From contig NC_088302.1 in the NCBI RefSeq assembly GCF_032854445.1, forward strand, positions 36,090,191 through 36,154,190: a DNA stretch of 64,000 nt, read 5' to 3'. Origin of the DNA: Liolophura sinensis (lineage: Eukaryota > Mollusca > Polyplacophora > Chitonida > Chitonidae). Numbering within the stretch: position 1 is the stretch's first letter; each line of letters begins with the position of its first letter. The notes under the pieces were generated by a model. It did no database searches and was not told where the DNA came from. It was given only the letters and a program-made list of their open reading frames with translations. Below, one piece after another: positions 1,531-63,600 of the stretch. Made by a program: the position numbers and the translations under genes.

Positions 1531-4500
1531 ATGGCTTACAAGTATAACATAACCAACAAGTGGAGGGAGTTATTACCTGCTCATTATGTGAAGCGTTGCA
1601 TGGAGTTTGACAATGCCCCACCCCTACCAATCCATTGGAAGCCTGCACCTGGAAAATACAAAATCAACCCAAAGACAGGGGAAAGGTTTGTATGTAAAGC
1701 ATAGATTTAGCCAGACGTTCCTTTTATTTGACATATCTCTCCAATACAAATTTGATCAAAGTAGCATTTCTTGAAATAAATAAAGACACTCCCTGGCTAA
1801 ACATGGCTGGACGGCTTTATTTCTGAGTACCTACATTGACAAGTAACCGGTCCATCCCCCACTACCTTGTGTATTTGTCTCTAAAAATGCACTTTGGTGG
1901 GCAAAATTTTAGGTCATTCAGGGTTTTTTCTCTGCTTTAAAAGTGGCATTTATTTTTTGACCTCTCCGTTTTCTTGACTGTATTTCTTGTTTTGTAGGTT
2001 GAGAATTATAGATGACCCTATTCCCCCAATCTATCCAGAAGAAGCTAACCAGGGTTTGTGGGGAGGAGAAGGGCTTGTGCAAGGTCTCATTCGCAAGAAG
2101 AAAAATAAACTTAGGTATGCATTTCACACTTCACCACAATATGGCTGAAATATTGCAAATGTGGCGTTAAACCATAGTCATTCATTCATTTCTCTCCAGA
2201 CCACTTCGGTGGCGTAATGGTCACATCGTTCAGTCTTGAGTCAGGAGACCGGGATCAAACCTGGGTTCGGTCATACCAAAACCTTGAAAAATGGTACTTG
2301 TTGCTACCTTGCTAGTCACTTAGTATTGAGAGGTTAGAGCTAGGAAACAGGACTGGTTGGCTCGGTGTCAGTATAGTGTGACTGGGTGGGTTGTCATGTT
2401 TGGTGTCTTCAACATGATACTTCAGTGGGGCTGCACTCTAGCGATGTGGACTCAAGAAGACACAGCATATGTACACAAATCTAATGACTCAATGACAAAA
2501 CCCAAAATATACATATATACATCATTTCTCTCCATGTTTGATACTACAGGTACATGAAGTTAGTGCACTGCAGGAATTGTATTTAAAGAGGTACACATGT
2601 TAGCAGGCTTTTCCATGAAATACAGTGTGAGGCATTACTTAGAATAAAGGCTGCATGTGAATGTTTATGCAGCACTTGACTTTTGTGTACTTATGATATA
2701 TATATATATATATTGTGTGTCACATGCAAGGCTTGGTAGCATTCACATGGGGTGATTTGGGGTATTTAATTGGCGTATGTGACAGGCCAAATACAAACCT
2801 GACAGGATTTATTTCAAATGACTTGTATGGTTATACCATTCGAGCAAAATTGATTGGTAGTGAAGAAATCTCCACGTAAATGTAAAAGGTTTCACAGACT
2901 TTCGACTCCAAGTGTCTCCACAAGAGTGTTGAAAGCTTGTGACTCACATTACATTTACCTGGTGATGCCTCGACTCCTTCAATGATTTACCTGGTGATGT
3001 CTCGACTCCTTCAATGATTTGCCTGGTGATGCCTCAACTCCTTCAATGATTTACCTTGTGATGCCTCAACTCCTTCAATGATTTACCTGGTGATTCCTCA
3101 ACTCCTTCAGTGATTTACCTGGTGATGCCTTGACTCCTTCAATGATTTGCTTGATGATGCCTCGACTCCTTCAATGATTTACCTGGTGATGCCTCGACTC
3201 CTTCAGTGAATCTAAGTCAGTATATAGTTTACATGTTTCTTTTTTGTTGATGGTGAATAGCGAATGGCCATCAACACCTTTATGCAGCATTTGACCAGGA
3301 AGTATGGACTTCACAGGTCAATGTTTTGTGTGTTACAGGATTCCCAGGTTATGGCTTCCTTGCCTAACAAGACGTCCTCTGTACAGCGAAGTCCTGGATA
3401 GATGGATGATAATCACAGTTACATTCAGAACTCTGGACCAGATTGATGACTGCTATGGCTTTGACAACTACATTTTAAAGGTGATAGATATATTTCAGAT
3501 ACAATTTACCAAAGCTAGATTTTGGTTGACTGTTTATTTTGTAGGGATAATCCTTGAAGACATACTTTGAACAAATTAGGTATCATAAACTAAAACTGGT
3601 TCCCCTGCTGTCATTATTTGTGTAACCTTGTGGACAACAAGTGCTCAAGGGCTATTGTGTGCCAAGTCGAACAAGTTCTTTTGTCTTCAACAAATGTGGC
3701 ATACACATCATAATAATGGCTGTAAGTTGTTTGTTTGTACATATGTAGCCTTACAAAACCTTTCAAATTAAATAACTAAACTGGGATAAAAGAAACAAAG
3801 CATTACTGAAGCTTATTTAACATTTATTTGGAGCAAAGTAGGTTTTATACATTTTTCTTCCATTGCTTTGTTTACATCCTCATGAAAAGTTCTGGGGCCT
3901 CCATGGCTCAGTTGGTTAGCGCGCTAGCACAGCGTAATGGCCCAGGAGTCTCTCACCAATGCGGTCGCTGTGAGTTCAAGTCCAGCTGATGCTGGCTTCC
4001 TCTCCGGCCGAAAGTGGGAAGGTCTGTCAACAACCTGCGGATGGTCATGGGTTTCCCCCGGGCTCTGTGCGGTTTCCACCCACCATAATGCTGGCCGCTG
4101 TCGTATAAGTGAAATATTCTTGAGTACGGCGTAAAACACCAATCAAATAAAGAAATAAATTTTGAGAAGTTCCTGAAAAGTTTTCTCAAGGCTTGTGTGG
4201 TTTTGTTGTATTCATGATGTCCATGTCAGTGAAAGTATTAGTACCTTGTTACTAGGTGTATTCACATATGTATAGATTATAAAATTGCACGAAATTTAGA
4301 TGCAGAAATATTAAGGCGGCTAGGTCTCCTGACATGATATCCTCATCTGTCAAGTCTTTGATGTTAGTTTTGGCACACAGCATCATTTGCTACCTTTACT
4401 GACGATGAGACCTTTATTTTGTAGACCTCAGAAATAGAACTCAACTCTAAACTGGGGATGGATCTGAAAAGAGAAATGATCTTGACTTTAGCCAACAAAT

Positions 4501-51600: not shown

Positions 51601-54600
51601 ACATATGAATGAATGGTTATAACTTTAAACTAGAATGCCAATATCACATCCATATTGTTGTGACACATTCTTTGTTCCTTCTTTAAGTATTTGTATACCA
51701 CTGACAATGTATAATAATCAAAATTATTTTCCAAATATGAAAACTTCCATTCCGAATTTATTTGACTGGGAATTTATTCTTTAGTGAAGAATATTTCACT
51801 TTATACAAGATGGTGGTAAAGTTGTCGGGTGGAGGAAACCAGAGATAGTGGGAGATGGATCTGAATACACAGCCTTTAGTTTTGGGCTCAAGAGCTAATC
51901 ACCTTCTTGAACAGTTTATTAGATACAAAAAACAGTGGCTTTTGATCTGGGCTAGAATATCATATCTTGGAAATATGAGCTGGGCGAAAAAAAAAAAAAA
52001 AAAAGCACAACAAACTTGTAAAAAGAAGTCAAAACCACAAGCGTTTCTGTCTGCAATTCACCACTGATAAGGAAAGTCATACTGGTTTCATCATTTATAA
52101 CCCAGTAAGCGAGAAGAGTTGGAATACAACATGTACTTACTGGGGCAGACAGGGCAGCACTGGCCAGGCATTTTGATAGGGTTCTCACACATGGTAAGGC
52201 AGCTCAACTCATCACAGGTAATCACCCCAGTGCTGCACATGCATGAGACGCAGGGGTTGTCCTGCAGGATCCAGTTAGAGGATTCCTCATAATGAACACC
52301 TTCATACATACAACCTGTGAACACAGAGAATGCGTTCATATGTACAACCTGGGAACACCTTCATACATACAACCTGTGAACACAGAGAATGCGTTAATAC
52401 ATACAACCTGGGAACACAAGAGAGCACCATACATACAGCCTGGGAACACAAGAGAGCACCATACATACATACACAGAGTACATATTCATACATATGACCT
52501 GATGAAAATGTTGACCATTTTCATACATACAACCTGTGAACACAGACAGAACACCTTCATACATACAACCAGGAACACAGACAGCACCTTCATACACACA
52601 ACCTGCAAACATAAAGAACACTTTCATACATATATACAAAACCTATGAATACAAAGGACACCTTCACATTTACAATCTGCGAACACAGAAAACACCTTCA
52701 TACATACAACCTGTGAACACAGAGCATATATTCATACATACAACCTGGTAAAATGTTGAACGCCTTTGTACATAACTTCTTTAAACATACAGTATGTGAT
52801 TATACATAGTGAACACCCTCATACAGCCTGGGAACACAGGCAGCATCTTCATATGTGTACATACAAACTGCAAAAACAATGAATATCTCACAAAATCAAC
52901 CTGTGAACACACCTTCATACATACAACCTGTGAATACACTTTCACGCAAACAATCTGTGAACACATCTTCATACATACAAGTTGTGAACACACTTTCATG
53001 CAAACAATCTGTGAACACACCTTCATACATACAAACTGTGAACACACTTTCATGCAAACAATCTGTGAACACACCTTCATACATACAACCTGTGAACACA
53101 CTTTCATGCAAACAATCTGTGAACACACCTTCATACATACAACCTGTGAACACACTGTCACGCAAACAATCTGTGAACACACCTTCAAACATACAGCCTG
53201 TGTACACACCTTTATACACACAATCTGTGAACACACTTTCACACAAACAACCTGTGAACACACTTTCATACATACAACCTGTTAACACGCCTCCATACAT
53301 GCAACCTGTGAACACACTTTCATACAAACAACCTGTGAACACACTTTCATACGTACAACCTGTGAACAAACCTTCACGTATACAGTATGTAAACACACAT
53401 TCATACATACAACCTGTGAACACACCTTCATGCAAACAATCTGTGAACACACCTTCATACATACAAACTGTGAACACACTTTCATACAAACAATCTGTGA
53501 ACACACCTTCATACATACAACCTGTGAACACACTTTCATGCAAACAATCTGTGAACACACCTTCATACATACAACCTGTGAACACACTGTCACGCAAACA
53601 ATCTGTGAACACACCTTCAAACATACAGCCAGTGTACACACCTTCATACACGCAATCTGTGAACACACTTTCACACAAACAACCTGTGAACACACTTTCA
53701 TACATACAACCTGTTAACACGCCTCCATACATACAACCTGTGAACACACTTTCATACAAACAACCTGTGAACACACTTTCATACGTACAACCTGTGAACA
53801 AACCTTCACGTATACAGTATGTAAACACACATTCATACATACAACCTGTGAACACACCTTCATACATACAACCTGTGAACACACTGTCACGCAAACAATC
53901 TGTGAACACACCTTCAAACATACAGCCTGTGTACACACCTTCATACACACAATCTGTGAACACACTTTCACACAAACAACCTGTGAACACACTTTCATAC
54001 ATACAACCTGTTAACACGCCTCCATACATGCAACCTGTGAACACACTTTCATACAAACAACCTGTGAACACACTTTCATACGTACAACCTGTGAACAAAC
54101 CTTCACGTATACAGTATGTAAACACACATTCATACATACAACCTGTGAACACACCTTCATGCAAACAATCTGTGAACACACCTTCATACATACAAACTGT
54201 GAACACACTTTCATACAAACAATCTGTGAACACACCTTCATACATACAACCTGTGAACACACTTTCATGCAAACAATCTGTGAACACACCTTCATACATA
54301 CAACCTGTGAACACACTGTCACGCAAACAATCTGTGAACACACCTTCAAACATACAGCCTGTGTACACACCTTCATACACGCAATCTGTGAACACACTTT
54401 CACACAAACAACCTGTGAACACACTTTCATACATACAACCTGTTAACACGCCTCCATACATACAACCTGTGAACACACTTTCATACAAACAACCTGTGAA
54501 CACACTTTCATACGTACAACCTGTGAACAAACCTTCACGTATACAGTATGTAAACACACATTCATACATACAACCTGTGAACACACCTTCATACATACAA

Positions 54601-57600
54601 CCTGTGAACACACGTTTATATACACAGCCTGTGAACACTTTCACACCTGTGTCTCACAATACCTTGCACTTGTTTGTCCTTACCTGAACATTTAGGACAA
54701 CACTCCCCAGGCTCAGTCACTGTCTTCAGACAGTCCAGTTTAGGGCACTGTTTGTCCTCACACACAACGTCTCCATTCTACAAACAAAACAGTGTCAACT
54801 TTGTATGTAGGTGTACAGCTGCATGGGTTTATTTACTGTATTTATTTATTTGATTGGTGTGAGAGGTAACCGGACAGAGCCACGGGGAAGCCCTGGGCCA
54901 TTCACAGGTTACTGGCAGACCTTCTCACATACGGCAGGGGATCACAATTAACAGGTCTCTTTGATTACTAGGTCTATTGCACAAAGTATAGAAAACATGG
55001 ACAAATCTGATAAACCAGGTGCGCAAGATTCCTATATGTTCAGTAATTAGTAATATAGGCATCTGGTATGACAGAAAGACGTTCCTTTGTCATTTCTGAT
55101 CATTCAGGAGTTGAATAGTTCCATCAAGTATTTTCTGTCACGCACCCTTATTTGTTCATACTCACAGTGCAGAAGCATGTTTTGCAGGGGTGTGGTCTGA
55201 ATGTCTGTCCATTACCCAGAAGTTGACCCTCAAAGTAACACTCATCACAGGAAGGGCAGCATTGCCCTGGGGCTGGGTGGGAGCAGTCTGCAACACACTG
55301 TGCTAGCGCACAACTCACTCTACCGCCCTAGGAGAGAACCGGGACATAAAAGTTCTGAGTGGGCGCATTGATTATGAGATATCAAGCAAGGTGTAAAACA
55401 ACAAAATGAAATGCAATATTGTGCCAGCTTGCCATTTTTTTTTGGAAGGAAAAAAAGGGTTATGAGAAAAGGGATTCAGTGAAACTTTGCTTATCATTGC
55501 TTTCTAACTGTTTTCAGTGTTTTACCTCTTTAAGTTTTAACTTTCTTCGATGAGGTGAACATACATTATTACTTGAGTGGACCATTGTGGAAATCTTGAA
55601 TATAGTAGGAAATCCTTGTCGAGTATAATGCTGCCACAATTTTACCATAATTTGAAGATTTAAATATACCCTAGAGTACATTCCCCAGATAGTAAAGTCC
55701 ACTGTTGTTAGAATTTGGTAAATGATTCAGAATGGACAGCATTCTGATTTCTTCAGTATTGCATCAATCGATCTGAGGATGTTATACTTACAGAGCAGGT
55801 ACACCTCTTACACTGATCTTCTGGGTGGACAAACGACTCTCCATCCTCATACTGCTTGTCGTAAAACTTACACACTGAAAAAAACACCGAAGTATCGTTT
55901 GTTTATTTGATTTACTGGATTGGTGTTTTACGCCGTACTCAAGAATATTTCATTTACACAGCGGCGGCCAGCATTATGGTGGGAGGAAACTGGGTAGAGC
56001 CAGGGCAAAACCTGCAACCATCTGCAGTTTGCTGTCAGATCTTCCCACGTATGGCTGGAAAGGAAGCCAGCATGAGCTGGACATGAACTCACAGCGACTG
56101 CATTGGTGAGAGGCTCCGGGATCAATGCTCCGCGCTGGCATGCTAGCCTCCTCGGCGATGGAGGTGCCTAATAAAGTATTGTTGAGTTAGACATGAAAAC
56201 ATAATGTTGAGGCAAACCGAGTTTCTGGGTAGACAAGTGACTCTTCATCCTCTTACTGCTCTTCGTTAAACCTGCCCCAGTAACTTAAAGGAGCCAAGGC
56301 ATTGACGAGTTAGTTGTGTATACAAATTCAAATCTTACTGGTTCAGCCGTTGTTTGTTTATTATTTCATGAATTTATTAACTAATTTATTAATGAGTCAT
56401 TTATCCACGCTGTAGATCAGTGTTAAAGATGTGTATGACTCAACAATACTTTGTTCATGTTTTAAGTGTGAAAATGTACAAAAACGATGAATGATTAGTT
56501 GGAATTGTAAAAATTTGTTAACTTCACTCCTTGCTTACACTGGCAGATGATGAAGGTAACACAGGCAGAAAGGTAAACAGGCAGAAAATATAACAAAAGA
56601 AATACAAACAGATGGTTTTTGTTACAAGTTACTTGAGAAAATGAACAGTTCTGAGCACGTGCCAATTCAGATCATTTTTTTTTCTGTACCACACATACCT
56701 GGGCATTCAAAGCAGCATTCTCCCGATCTCCTCACAGGGCTAGCACAGCGGGGCTCTAAACAGACTTTCCTCTGACAAGTCACACTGCCACTCTGGAGAA
56801 AATGTGAGCAACATTTAACAAAAAAAGAGAATTTAACTATGCTGCTTTTCACTGATTTAAATACAAAAGAAATGTTATTATTTAAATAATCTGCATGTAA
56901 GAGAACACTGTTCTGCCTAAAACTACTTTTACATATTTTTTTGTTCAAAACATCAAATGTTTGAAATGATAGTGTTAGGTCCAGGAAAATCCCATTATGG
57001 AAACATTAACACTGCACAACCAGACCAGCTGCACTTCACAAATAAAGCACTGGCAGACTAGTAGCTCAGTACTGGGGTACCCTGAGAGAAGCGTTTCCTT
57101 GGTCTGTATTACAATAAATGATCTTAAGTTTTGCCCATGACTAAATTGCACATTCTGCCTCATTTTAAGTGTTCTGTTTATCTTAAGAAAGGTGTTCTGG
57201 GATTTGTTTGGAGATGAATATGCCAAAAGTAATATATTATGACATTAATTTGTTTAAGAATATGAACTCTTTGGGTTGAAAATTTAGGTCATTTGTCACA
57301 TATTCCTAGGGGGTAACAGCCCAAAAACTTGAGATAACAACTGACCCCATATGACAGCTTTCTGATATTACTGCCATTCTGAATGGCATTGGTCATTTAC
57401 CTTACAAGAACAGGACAGACATGGATCTTCTTGTGAAACAAACTGTTGGTCATCCTCATAGGTTTGACCCTCGTAGAAACAGCGGTCACAGACTGGACAG
57501 CAGTGGTCAGTGGAGGCAGGATGGGTACATGTCTGCTGACAGGCGACAGTCTCACATCTAACATTACCAGCCTGCGGGGGTAATGGAAGGGAAAATCATC

Positions 57601-60600
57601 AGAATATCCCAACATTGCCAACATCATATGCTGAACAGCAATGATCCATTCCTAAATTTCAAAGAAATTATATTTATGTATCTATTTATTTTTTTGGTGT
57701 TTAACACTGTACTCAACAACATTTTCATCTGTGGATTATCGGCATTTGGCAAGTCTACAATGGTAAACTTTCCTGCATGTGACTGCATTAGAATTTCAAC
57801 GTAATGCTGAAAAACTATGTGATGTATAAAGAACTTCTTGTAAGCTCACCTTAAAGGATACAAAAAAAGGTACTATAAACCAAAGTGTATGGCTTTAATT
57901 AGAATGAAGAAAGACGTGTGCTAAGAAAAAGTCCATTTGAAGAGTGTACTGTTATCAGATCAGACAGTATAATGCTCTGAAAGAAAACTGATTTTCACAG
58001 ACTTTCAAGGGCCTGACATCTTACATTAAAAAACACAATTAGTTAAAGTACAAATCTTCATGTCGAGACTAATTAATACTATATTGGCATTTTTTGAATC
58101 AAACCATTTTGAATATAATATGATATTTAACACAAAAGTATTTTTAAGGACATATCCCAAAAGAGACTTTTTTGCAGAAGCTTAAGTTTAAGTACTTTCT
58201 GGGATTTAATTTTGGGAAAAATTAATCCTGTGATACATGCAAAAAATGATTGAAAATGCATAGGTGGGGCGCTCATAAAATCTTAGATTTTATACCTGAC
58301 AATTACACGTCTGACAAACGTCGGACGGGTGGTTGAACTGCTGACCATTGTCCACTGATATCCCGAGGAAGACGCAGTTGTCACAATGACCACACCCACA
58401 CTCGTCCTGAGAGGGGTGGCGACACCTGGCTTGCTCACAGCGCTTTGCCTCACACACAACTGACCCTCCCTGACGAACGAAGAGAAATAACTTGAAAGTG
58501 ATAGGAGATCAAATATATACTGCAGGAATGAAATGGGACTGTGTATTCTTTATTGTGTTTAATACAGTTCCAGACCAAAGACGAACAAAAAAATGACAAC
58601 AGATACAAGAATAAAGTTTATTCAACTGACCACACTCTGAAGATAATTTCCATACAATTGTCACTCCAAGTTCGGATGTATGTTCCCAATACACAGGGAC
58701 AGAACCTTATTCTGGTCAATGGCTCCATTTCACAAAGAGATCAAAGTTGACTGGAAGTACCATGGCAATATCTCCAGCCTGTCTCAGCATGATAGTTACA
58801 ACAGACGTAGATACACGATTTTACAACTGCTTTGTGGAACCAAATCAAGACACTAGGGTTAATCGAGTGCTCTTCCAATGTAATTCTATAGGAGACAGAG
58901 GTGGACATCATAAATACTGACCCTACATGTACAAGTTTGGCACTTGTCCTCTGCACTGGGGAAACTGGACCCCTGGGGCACCCTCCTCCCCTCAAACAGG
59001 CAGTCTGCCCCACACTGAGGGCAGCACTGCCCCATCACCGGGTGCTGGCAGGAGACTGGGGAGCAGGGCCTCTTGGAGCAGGTCACTGTGCCATCCTGGG
59101 GGGCAGCAACCAGATATGGAAATACGAAAAAAAAAAAAAGAAAAAAAAAAAAAAGAAAAAAAAAAAGAAAAAAAAAAAAAGAAAAAAAAATGCTAATAAG
59201 AATAATTCAAATTTTTTATTTCATATAAATTCATCTTCTTGTGTGGGAGACAAGGAGTGTTTATCCCTGAAAACTTGTTAAAGGCAAAGAAAAACAATAA
59301 TTTCAAGTTATTACCAACTGGAAAACCGTCACCAGCTACATGCATTTCTATAACCATTCTTATCATTTAATAAAATTTTACTTCCAATCTAACAAATACC
59401 ATATAATGCAAAACAGAAATTATCATGTATGAGCAAGAGTTTCTATAAAAGATACCAAGCCACAGTAATGATGCTATCTATGTTCAGCACAATGATACTG
59501 TCTTACCTGACAGTTGCATTCCTTACACTGGTTCCTGACATCGCTAAAGGTCTGACCGTTGATATACCGCCGGCCATTGTAGAAGCAGTGGCTGCATTCA
59601 GGGCAACACTTGTCAGGCAGACTGACCGGGTGCAGACAGGATAGCATAGGGCAGTAGGTCTGCTCGCACTGGACATTTCCTTTTACACACAAGCACTTTT
59701 GACAGTCTTTCTCCAGAGATTGGCCACTGTCCATGACCTGTCCCTGGTACAGACACTGACCACTGCACTGTAGACAGCACGGCCCCTGAACAGGGTGGGT
59801 GCAATACGTCACAGGGCACTCTTTCCGTCTACAGGTCACTGTGCCACGCAGGCATACGCAAAGACGGCACGGGTCCGATGTGTCCGGGAATTCTGTACCA
59901 CTGCGAATCGTTCGGTTCTCGTAGAGACAGTCACTGCATTCGTGACAGCATTCGATCTTCACAGGGTGTCGGCAGGTCATGACGGGGCAGGGTTTGTCCT
60001 GGCACTGAACAGTTCCATCCGCACAGTCACACTCCCTGCACTGGTCTGCAGGGTCCTCAAACCGCTGGCCGTTGTCGTAAACCTGTCCGTTGTAGCGGCA
60101 GGCATCACACTCCTGGCAACAGGCACCCTGGACAGGGTGGCGGCAGGTCACCGGTGGACACTGTGGGCTACGGCATGTCATGGTGCCCCGGGAGCAGTGA
60201 CAATCCCGGCATCCTACCCCACCCCCTCCGCTTTCGCTAAACCCCTTACCGTTCTCGTACTGCGTTCCCTCAAAGAGGCACTGTTCACACTCAGCACAGC
60301 ACTGACCCTGCACAGGATGTTGACATGTCACCGCTGGACAAGCTCGCTTTCTGCAAACCACGTTGCCTCGCGCACACTGACAGATGTTGCACTCGTCTTT
60401 CAGATCCTGGAAAACCTCGTTGTTCCTTCGTCTGACATCTTCGTACAAGCAGTCTTCACATTCTCGACAGCACTGGCCCTGGACTGGATGACGACACACA
60501 ACTCGCCTGCACTGTCGCTGACGACACACAACATCTCCGTTCCTGCACTGACACACCTTACACGGATCTGTCTGATCAGCGAATGACTGTTGATTACGGT

Positions 60601-63600
60601 ATTCTGCCTGGTTATAGAAACACCCGTCACACTCTGGACAGCACAACCCCTGGATGGGATGACTACAAGCAGGTTGGGTGCACATCTTGGGTTGGCACTC
60701 CACATTGCCCTGGTGACACTGACAATACTTACAAGGGTCTCGGTCATCCTGAATGATCTGCTGATCCAGGTACTCTCTACCCCTGTGTAGACAGTTCCCG
60801 CACTCGGGGCAACAGCGCCCCTGGGCAGGGTGCTGACAAGGGGCGTCGGGGCAGGGCCTCACTTGACAGCGGACATTCCCTCGCACACATTGACAAGTGT
60901 GGCACGGGTTACGTGGATCCTCAAATGTTTGGGAATTGTCATATTGTACCTGGAGATAGCTGCAGCCGGAGCACTCATCGCAGCATCCATTTTTTACAGG
61001 GTGGCTGCACAGGGCATTGGGGCACTGTCTGGGGCGACACACCACATCTCCTCGCTGACACACACATTTGTTACAGGTGTCCGCAGCATCAGGGAACATC
61101 GCCCCTTCCTGATGCTGTACCCCATCATACAGACAACCAGTGCATTCAGGGCAGCACTTCCCCTGCACTGGGTAACGGCACTGCACCGGAGGACATGTCT
61201 TGTCACGGCAGTCCACGTTCCCATCTCGACACAAGCAAACTTTGCAATCATTGGTTGGTTCGTCAAATGCAAGTCCATTGCGATAGCGCTTGTCGAAGAA
61301 GCTGCAGTCGTTGCACTCCAGACAGCACTTACCTTGTGCTGGGTTCTGGCAGGGCAGATTTGCACCGCAGGTGACGGCTGCACATGTAACAGTGCCATTA
61401 TGGCATACACACTCACTGCAAGGCTCTGTGGCATCAGGGAACCTTTGCCCATTACGGTATTGTCTTCCAAGATACAGGCACTGCCTACAGGATGGGCAGC
61501 AGTCCAGTGGTGCCGGGTGCTGGCAGGACACGGGGGCACAGGGGCGCTCCAAGCAAGTCACATTACCCCCGCGGCAAGTGCAGTCCTCACATCTGGAGTA
61601 CGGGTTACGCATCGTCTGGCCACTAGGCAGAGGGCGACCAAAGAACGTGCAGCCTAAGATAAGATTTAAGATTTGTATCGGTAATTAGTGTGTTTGATCA
61701 GCACAATACCAGATTTGCTTAAATATATGTAGTAGTTTGACCCAGGCTAAACTCTTTTCAAGGGGATGCCACAGACATATTGAAACAAAAATTCTTAACT
61801 TTACATGACCAAATCTGACAAGAATTTGTGACTTTTACCTTACAAAATGACAAATTCTGAAGGCCAATACTACTTCATTAAATGATTTATATGTACTGTA
61901 TCTCAGATGTTTCCCCATCAGGCTGAAATAATAAAGAAAGGAAAAACATTCACATCTATGACTTTTGCATTTTCTTAAAATTCATGAATGTTTTTATAAC
62001 ATTTCACGACTCTTTTTTCAATGACTGTCAGTGTTCAGGAGCACAGCATTAGCCTGCTAGCAGTGTGCCTGTGGAATGGTAGTGGAGTGATTGCCATATG
62101 CACATACCATGGCAGTAACATTATTTTCCAACACAGACCTCCCCCTCCCCCACACCCCATCCCAAACAAAAACTGACTGCACTTAATCATCAAAATGTTT
62201 TGATCATTTTACCGTCACAAGACGGGCAACAGTCTCCATTCAATGGGTGTGAACATGTCACAGTAGCACACTGCATCCTCTGACAGGAGATTCTGCCTCG
62301 ATCACAAACACATTCCTCACAAGGGTCTCTTTGACTGGGAAATCTGAAATCACAGTGAATATACATATAGACAGTTAAAACTTTTCTTCTGACAACCTAA
62401 TGATTTCTGTCCTCATTAGAAGGCTGACTTTCAAGTCCACATTTCATGAGTCAGTTTTGTAAATAATTTCAAATAAAACATTTTCAATGAATGAACTGCT
62501 TGATGTAAATGTTTGCAGTTTTCCAACAGATTTATTTACAGTTCATTGGTGTTTTCAAGACCATTTCACTAGCATGATGTTTGTTAGTAAGACTGCCAGG
62601 GGGCCCGGTTTCCTCCCACCATAATGCTGGTTGCCGACATAAAAGTAAAATATTCTTGAGTACAACACAAGCACAGCGTAAAACACCAATCAAATAAATA
62701 CATAATAAAATACTGCCAGATGGATAACAGAAGAGCAGAGTTGTGAAGAGACCTCGTCAAAAATTGGTTTGGTAGAGGCCAACTGTTTGATAGACCAGTT
62801 ATGTCTCCCATTTGTTTTTTAATGTTCTGAAAAAAAAAACAGCCATGAGTTTTTATCAGTATGATTCATCTAATTTGAGGTTCCTAATGTTTGACTGAAT
62901 CCCTGTTGTATTCAACATGGCTCCTGCACCGAGTACAAAAACTGCCAGGTTCAACATTTTAAGCATGACTGAACTTCGGCTTTTCAAGAACATAATGTAG
63001 AGAATCATCCAAATCACACTTTACATCTTTAAAACTATAAAGCTTTTTCTTGCACAGACAGGTTGCTGACCTTTGGCCCTGCTGGAATTGCTGACCTTGA
63101 AATTCGCATGTTTCAGGTGGACAGATAGGGCAGCACTCTCCTGGCAGACTAAGGGGTTCTGGGCATGGTGCAGGGGAACAAGGTCGTGGCTGACAGTTCA
63201 CTGATCCATCCTACAGATAGAAGAAGCCCGAGAACGTTTTAATGCACAGATATCACAGCAATTAGTCTTATGAATGGGTGAAGCCAGGTAGAGCCAAGTG
63301 GTGGAACCTCCATATGCTTGTAGCAACCTCCAGACACAAAACCGCAGCTAAGATTAGGAGATAGGTTTGAATATGCCAAGGGTCACAGACTCTTTGTCTT
63401 TCAGGACAAACAATAAAGTATGTCGGCAAAAACAGAGGAAAAGTGGAATAGGGCTGTACTTTATGGACAGCTTTTAATAACTTGTATTGCTAAATGCAAC
63501 CTAAAACCCAAGTTAAACAGAAATAAGTTAAATCACACAATTCTTTCTTTGGCTAAATGTGCAGAATCAATCAAAATCAAGGAATTTATCAAATATGCAA

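Follow-up and report, generated by a model that had tools for sequence, protein, structure and literature searches.

A probable "mirage" at the 3' splice site of a VWC exon in the chiton Liolophura sinensis, and further exon-boundary arrays in the same genome

Minisatellites made of tandem copies of an exon boundary have been described in amphioxus under the name "mirages", in Adh3 and in the globins BflGb6 and BflGb9 (PMC3087553), with PGBD5 and TnC as further examples (PMC3902484). The available text of the first report gives units of 10-72 bp in Adh3 and 150-160 bp in the globins, with 6 and 3 units in two haplotypes of BflGb6, and reports no interference with regular splicing (PMC3087553). 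Here we describe a putative array of this kind in a 64,000-nucleotide stretch of the Liolophura sinensis genome (NC_088302.1, 36,090,191 to 36,154,190; the whole stretch is called the window below). In it, one intron of a minus-strand gene is made up almost entirely of repeats of its acceptor together with the first ~20 nt of the next exon, which encodes a VWC domain. The array shares with the amphioxus mirages the tandem boundary copies, which in amphioxus occur at acceptors and donors, with AG or GT in many but not all units (PMC3087553). It differs from them in its host, a mollusc, in its number of about 80 copies, in its two tiers, the larger with weakened acceptors, and in its higher-order blocks.

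Human genes offer partial parallels. The variable number tandem repeat (VNTR) in intron 18 of ABCA7 has a 25-bp unit that starts at the GT of the exon-18 donor and is present in about 12-427 copies (PMC5954066). Like the VWC array it consists of arrayed splice-site copies, one of which acts as a cryptic donor; unlike the VWC array it lies on the donor side, its unit begins at GT, and exon sequence in the unit is not described in the available part of that paper (PMC5954066). The CBS variant 844ins68 is a 68-bp duplication of the intron 7/exon 8 junction of which the more distal site is used; the sites are called donor sites in PMC2630376, although a title cited there says 3' splice site. It shares the junction duplication, but it is a single extra copy and not an array. 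Another CBS repeat, the VNTR c.1444_1467+7 (16-21 copies in a table of PMC2630376), by its name spans exon into intron, as the VWC unit does, but on the donor side and with fewer copies. Human segmental duplications carry variable internal tandem repeats at exon-intron boundaries, for which a role in the formation of new introns has been proposed. These too are of minisatellite type, but they lie within exons of recent paralogues and are not described as splice-site copies in the text available (PMC2812944). Simple repeats are reported from Conus introns (PMC3862624) and large intronic minisatellites from earthworm metallothionein introns (PMC12783039); neither source, in its available part, describes splice-site copies. 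Among the matches listed from the open-licence literature, no molluscan splice-site minisatellite was found, and arrays under the name mirage were found only for lancelets. The author of an earlier note on this DNA knew of no described case in which the acceptor of a domain exon had seeded so large an array; the amphioxus mirages and the ABCA7 donor VNTR are such precedents (PMC3087553, PMC3902484, PMC5954066).

In the protein of the host gene, many VWC domains precede VWD and TIL domains (Pfam; exons located within the window), an architecture that we take to be the one labelled "kielin/chordin-like". The features of the intron and its borders are, in the direction of transcription:

54684..54777, minus strand: upstream exon, second half of a VWC domain, ending TCA G in phase 1, as read from the sequence
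52315..54683, minus strand: host intron, 2369 nt, composed of a 1755-nt distal tier and a 582-nt proximal tier, with ~28 nt ahead of the distal tier
52901..54655, minus strand: distal tier, 65 units of 27 bp without gaps (GTTGTATGTATGAAGGTGTGTTCACAG), of which the first is degenerate; acceptors weakened
52896..52898, minus strand: in-phase TGA that closes the frame running in from the distal tier, as read from the sequence
52315..52896, minus strand: proximal tier, ~15 presumably older segments; one is 83 nt long and the others 24-40 bp, and most have (C/T)AG behind a pyrimidine tract
52294..52417, minus strand: 59-bp tandem duplication, 2.1 copies at 95%, which duplicates the acceptor as a decoy 59 nt upstream (decoy exon start 52373)
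52141..52314, minus strand: complete VWC exon; the exon-derived portion of the unit comes from its first ~20 nt

The upstream half-exon matches Pfam VWC at profile positions 27-57 with an E-value of 4.2e-5, its 24.2 bits lying below the gathering score of 27.6. The exon at 52314-52141 opens GT TGT ATG TAT GAA GGT GTT CAT, and its peptide matches Pfam VWC from the first Cys with an E-value of 5.5e-10.

The first 19 nt of the 27-bp consensus are the first 19 nt of this exon, and the end of the unit is the end of the intron. When the consensus unit was set against the junction window (-7 to +20), 26 of 27 positions were equal. By comparison, the 122,774 other 27-mers of the window, taken in any rotation, agreed at 11.7 positions on average (sd 1.49) and at 21 at most; exact matches to the unit at other places in the window did not exceed 10 nt. 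The authentic junction is the terminal copy, and the 23-nt window used for scoring acceptors is identical at 52373 and 52314. The array has three marks of a mirage: its tandem units include both the end of the intron and the start of the exon (19 nt of exon and the adjoining acceptor), the real junction closes the series, and the AG signal is kept in many but not all units, 59 of the 65 distal ones ending in CAG. These results support a derivation of the unit from the acceptor of the VWC exon, with the real junction as its last copy. Copying from exon into intron would be the simplest direction, because the exon part of the unit is genuine VWC coding sequence. The earlier note had claimed this origin, which is supported here; its picture of 27-bp units running up to the exon holds for the distal tier and gives way, in the proximal tier, to the segments of other lengths.

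The 609-Mb assembly, with some stretches masked as N, was also searched with the 21-bp junction word. All listed matches having 0-1 mismatch fell inside the host intron or at its junction; a reversed control word gave 2 matches. A genome-wide satellite was considered and rejected, since outside the intron the junction word showed only 2-mismatch matches among those listed, at six places that include an array on C6. A paralogue with the same exon was not found: the VWC exon gave one DNA match in the assembly, namely itself, and the next protein match by E-value was 41% identical. The C6 array (L006 1167-4154; G000 C6:69449666-69452653) comprises 64 copies of a 47-bp unit, some of them with TTTACAGGTTGTATGTATGGA, which is 2 mismatches from the junction word. 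No exon was recognised beside it.

The proximal tier keeps the pyrimidine tract, its copies typically reading GTTGTATGTATGAAGGTGTTCTGTCTGTGTTCACAG, that is, the exon start plus an acceptor with its tract (two of the segment ends were placed by eye). The distal tier consists of a shorter unit without the tract and shows near-identical duplication of 729-bp blocks. Tandem Repeats Finder reported the distal tier at 52897-54638 with periods of 54 and 81, both multiples of 27, and a looser array at 52301-52748 with a period of 34. The first distal unit mismatches at 13 of 27 positions. Sorted by type (24 distinct units), the distal array is laid out as 3 leading units followed by blocks of 16, 11, 16 and 19. 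Mean identity between units is 0.94 at a lag of 27 units versus 0.81 at a lag of 1, and two successive 729-bp blocks differ at only 2 positions, which suggests recent growth. The assembly holds one match to the VWC exon. From the pattern of divergence we infer that the far end has grown recently and that the exon-adjacent end is older and untidy.

To judge the strength of the copies, acceptors were scored with a matrix built from 21 other acceptors of the gene, which were chosen by eye from the reading frames; the gene's own acceptors were scored leave-one-out. The true site scored 12.41, and the 22 gene acceptors had a median of 8.08 and a minimum of 0.66. In the proximal tier, 10 of the 25 other AGs reached the gene median, with scores of 8.9-13.65; over the whole window only 2.0% of minus-strand AGs did so. 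These ten strong decoys (52867, 52827, 52710, 52676, 52642, 52602, 52533, 52439, 52407 and 52373) all lie within 553 nt of the exon, the copy made by the 59-bp duplication being the closest, and two of them, 52533 and 52373, equal or exceed the score of the true site. The distal tier has 124 AGs, among them 64 CAGs (the 59 unit ends and a few inside units). These CAG sites had a mean score of 4.00 and a maximum of 6.23, so that none reached the median. They also have 5-7 pyrimidines per 15 positions versus 8-14 in the 22 gene acceptors, a complete separation, and the previous AG is 11-12 nt away in 57 of 64 cases, as against 19 nt or more in every one of the 22 gene acceptors.

The likely decoys are therefore about ten and not the dozens that the earlier note had counted. 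Its statement that units keep the CAG and the phase of the exon stands for the distal tier, whose frame is in phase; five of the ten strong proximal decoys are out of frame. Its further suggestion, that alternative use would insert Cys-rich repeats into the protein, is not supported, as all ten strong decoys (after 4 to 69 residues) and the three distal units tested run into a stop unless there is a second splice, and the substitutions look neutral. The closing of the frame near 52896, which it had also noticed, is confirmed.

Taken together, the array is probably a mirage, that is, a minisatellite that arose when an intron-exon boundary was duplicated in tandem; the boundary in this case would be the acceptor of the VWC exon. 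An early slippage or unequal exchange would have duplicated ~34 bp across the junction, and upstream copies would then have accumulated while the exon-adjacent copy remained in use. One copy would later have lost 7 bp (TTCTCTG) between two TGTT repeats and expanded, perhaps in that order; the 27-bp unit reads as the 34-bp form minus TTCTCTG between two TGTT repeats. The spliceosome would be expected to skip the 27-bp tier, with its few pyrimidines and close upstream AGs. The true acceptor would be expected to prevail over the ten strong old copies through exon definition and through decay of mis-spliced RNA, the latter because all ten lead to stops. The array would then most likely be a tolerated passenger rather than a regulated switch.

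Several points weigh against this reading or parts of it. For copying from exon into intron, the homology to VWC domains is the sole argument. The C6 array shares the 21-bp core, apart from the 2 mismatches, so the similarity could come in part from a motif prone to amplification. Of the 64 distal CAG sites, 63 outscore the weakest real acceptor, and for this reason the matrix alone cannot exclude them; moreover, 7 of the 22 real acceptors score no higher than 6.23, the best distal site. The weakness of the distal tier accordingly rests more on pyrimidine count and AG distance than on the 21-site matrix. Finally, several other mirages of this genome, described next, have intact splice signals throughout almost the whole series. 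Mirages therefore do not in general have to lose the pyrimidine tract, and a general weakening of their copies was rejected as a rule.

Further boundary arrays were sought in a sample of 82 loci of the same genome, made up of VWC loci (30 of 50 matches), Sushi loci (30 of the 150 matches listed) and myosin-head loci (22 of 81 matches); some of these overlap (L055 and L062 share an array). Exon-edge words recurring nearby were identified, and arrays with splice-like units were then read, although not every array base by base. In the additional mirages the limits of the exons were placed by eye, and the adjoining exons were identified by a Pfam scan in seven cases and by the family match in the other four. 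Eleven further arrays were found, three at acceptors and eight at donors:

C1, VWC, L013: donor, 98 bp
C6, Sushi, L055: donor, 53 bp x 10.9
C4, Sushi, L066: donor, 87 bp x 9.3
C13, Sushi, L050: donor, 39 bp x 9.5
C12, myosin, L087: donor, 66 bp, 7 copies
C1, myosin, L092/L077: donor, 31 bp, 6 copies
C3, myosin, L093/L084: donor, 121 bp x 8.4
C12, myosin, L080: donor, 31 bp x 18
C6, VWC, L014: acceptor, 73 and 96 bp
C13, Sushi, L069: acceptor, 82 bp x 5.3
C2, myosin, L089 9-705 (G000 C2:5377809-5378505): acceptor, 32 bp x 21.9, directly before the P-loop exon encoding RFERNQSIIVSGESGAGKT

In all seven adjoining exons that were scanned, Pfam reported Sushi or Myosin_head, L080 with 32.0 bits, below the cut-off of 33.3. 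Splice-signal counts take in the true site where the locus contains it. The unit of L089 is cttgtctgctgtgtttgtag / GTTTGAGCG, the stroke marking the boundary; AG is kept in 20 of 22 copies, and 17 of them (the true site and 16 upstream) are identical over 27 nt, which makes this the cleanest case of what would be competing identical acceptors. Donor signals are kept in L055 (7/9), L087 (7/7), L092 (6/6), L084 (8/8) and L080 (17/18). They are degraded in L013, where 5 of 7 copies have AT for GT, and in L066, where GT is absent in 10 of 23 copies. An array beside the myosin exon of L079 begins inside the intron and holds no exon sequence; it was not counted as a mirage. On C12, beyond the 66-bp donor array of L087, a CAGGT(A/G)TGTGAT-like word continues as ~38 copies of a 25-bp unit (L087 56-1008, L080 2127-3079). 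This continuation is visible in both overlapping loci, and the arrangement is perhaps another two-tier array.

Within the window itself, eight copies of a 32-bp unit containing CACCAG/GTAAAT lie at 2953-3209 on the minus strand. No exon was recognised there, and this might be a donor-side array.

Is the VWC array partly coding, with units spliced in as extra Cys-rich nine-residue repeats? The distal tier is open in phase with the exon for 585 codons, up to the TGA at 52898-52896. Donor-like AAG/GTGTGT occurs in 22 of 65 units, and pseudoexons of 15+27k nt would preserve the frame. The open frame is no evidence of coding, however, because the substitutions look neutral for protein and the opposite strand is open as well, for 624 codons. 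The 27 distinct substitutions in 63 units (the first two distal units being omitted) comprise 6 silent, 21 replacement and 0 stop changes, compared with 16, 61 and 4 among all possible single changes, so that silent changes are not in excess. The translated array had no Pfam match, and from each of three entry points tested the distal frame hits the TGA unless spliced again. With neutral substitutions, the closing stop and the absent Pfam match, an exon-coded amino-acid repeat was ruled out, and insertion of units as extra repeats is barely credible. A switch based on decoys, in which the ten strong proximal acceptors compete with the true site and yield early-stop transcripts, so that protein output is adjusted through array length or trans factors, seems rather unlikely. 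It would draw on the ten decoys at or above the gene's median score, two of them at or above the true site, all reading into stops, and on ABCA7, where RNA shows retention of one unit through a donor copy in the VNTR and exon 19 is skipped more often when the VNTR is longer (PMC5954066). That one-unit retention is unchanged with VNTR size in the available text of the same paper, however, CBS 844ins68 strongly favours the more distal site (PMC2630376), and in the amphioxus report, as available, mirages leave regular splicing undisturbed (PMC3087553).

Chance juxtaposition of an ordinary intronic minisatellite and the exon, or a core motif that is merely prone to amplification, is highly improbable, although the background of arrays is dense and the C6 array has the 21-bp core in common. 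Arrays cover 4.9% of positions in the VWC and Sushi loci. Random 80-nt windows fell in arrays in 131 of 1632 cases there (8.0%, or 5.4% without the loci having edge arrays) and in 102 of 704 in the myosin loci (14.5%). Exon edges were hit no more often, in 5 of 102 tests for VWC and Sushi (one being the VWC intron array) and in 1 of 44 for myosin. These edge counts omit nine VWC loci inside an 11-domain exon, and the test misses boundaries beyond the family match; several arrays sit at other exons and were found by reading. A random-placement estimate was made for 23 distinct arrays in the 128-kb union of 51 VWC and Sushi loci, where an array had to end near an edge. With a tolerance of 51 nt, 0.93 were expected and 5 observed (P 0.0027; 0.013 without the VWC intron array), and with 101 nt P was 0.040 (0.105 without it). 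The myosin set showed no excess (P 0.38 and 0.61, respectively). That boundaries attract arrays above the high minisatellite background is thus not established. What speaks against chance at the VWC locus is the unit, which contains 19 nt of exon coding for the beginning of the VWC domain; a chance meeting would not give that. In addition, twelve sampled arrays, including the one in the VWC intron, carry exon sequence that ends at a splice site. Arrays of this type are likeliest to be a recurrent, mostly neutral product of slippage that splicing tolerates.

Two other observations concern coding sequence. At 59477-61684, on the minus strand of the window, a single uninterrupted frame of 736 codons contains 11 VWC stretches, and the other VWC domains of the gene are mostly split over small exons; the frame is possibly an intron-less or retro-copied block. 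Elsewhere in the genome, at C8:37.88-37.89 Mb, eight haemocyanin beta-sandwich domains stand in tandem, a feature that marks the genome as molluscan. For one of the eight, the PDB matches are long haemocyanins of many units, KLH1 among them. We take these haemocyanins to be molluscan, and the best PDB match, 3j32, to be that of abalone.

By its sequence, then, the VWC array is a member of a class already described; what is new is the presence of this class in a mollusc and its recurrence in a small sample. The chances seem to us about even that splice-site minisatellites pervade this genome, in the sense that, close to exons, a sizeable share of them have a splice acceptor or donor as anchor and extend a short way into the exon. 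The genome would then keep generating near-perfect splice sites in tandem, which are either weakened (loss of the tract, or GT to AT in the VWC donor array) or tolerated (the 16 exact acceptor copies at the myosin exon). The finding of twelve arrays among 82 sampled mollusc loci suggests that the phenomenon is more widespread among animals. Where conserved genes contain series of identical acceptors or donors, these would provide test cases for the roles of distance to the exon, order of synthesis and exon definition. They are relevant, too, to a proposed origin of new introns, in which boundaries are duplicated in tandem (PMC3087553). If splice-site minisatellites are indeed pervasive, they would constitute a natural library for studying how a spliceosome picks one site out of many near-identical ones, and new introns could arise from them at any time.

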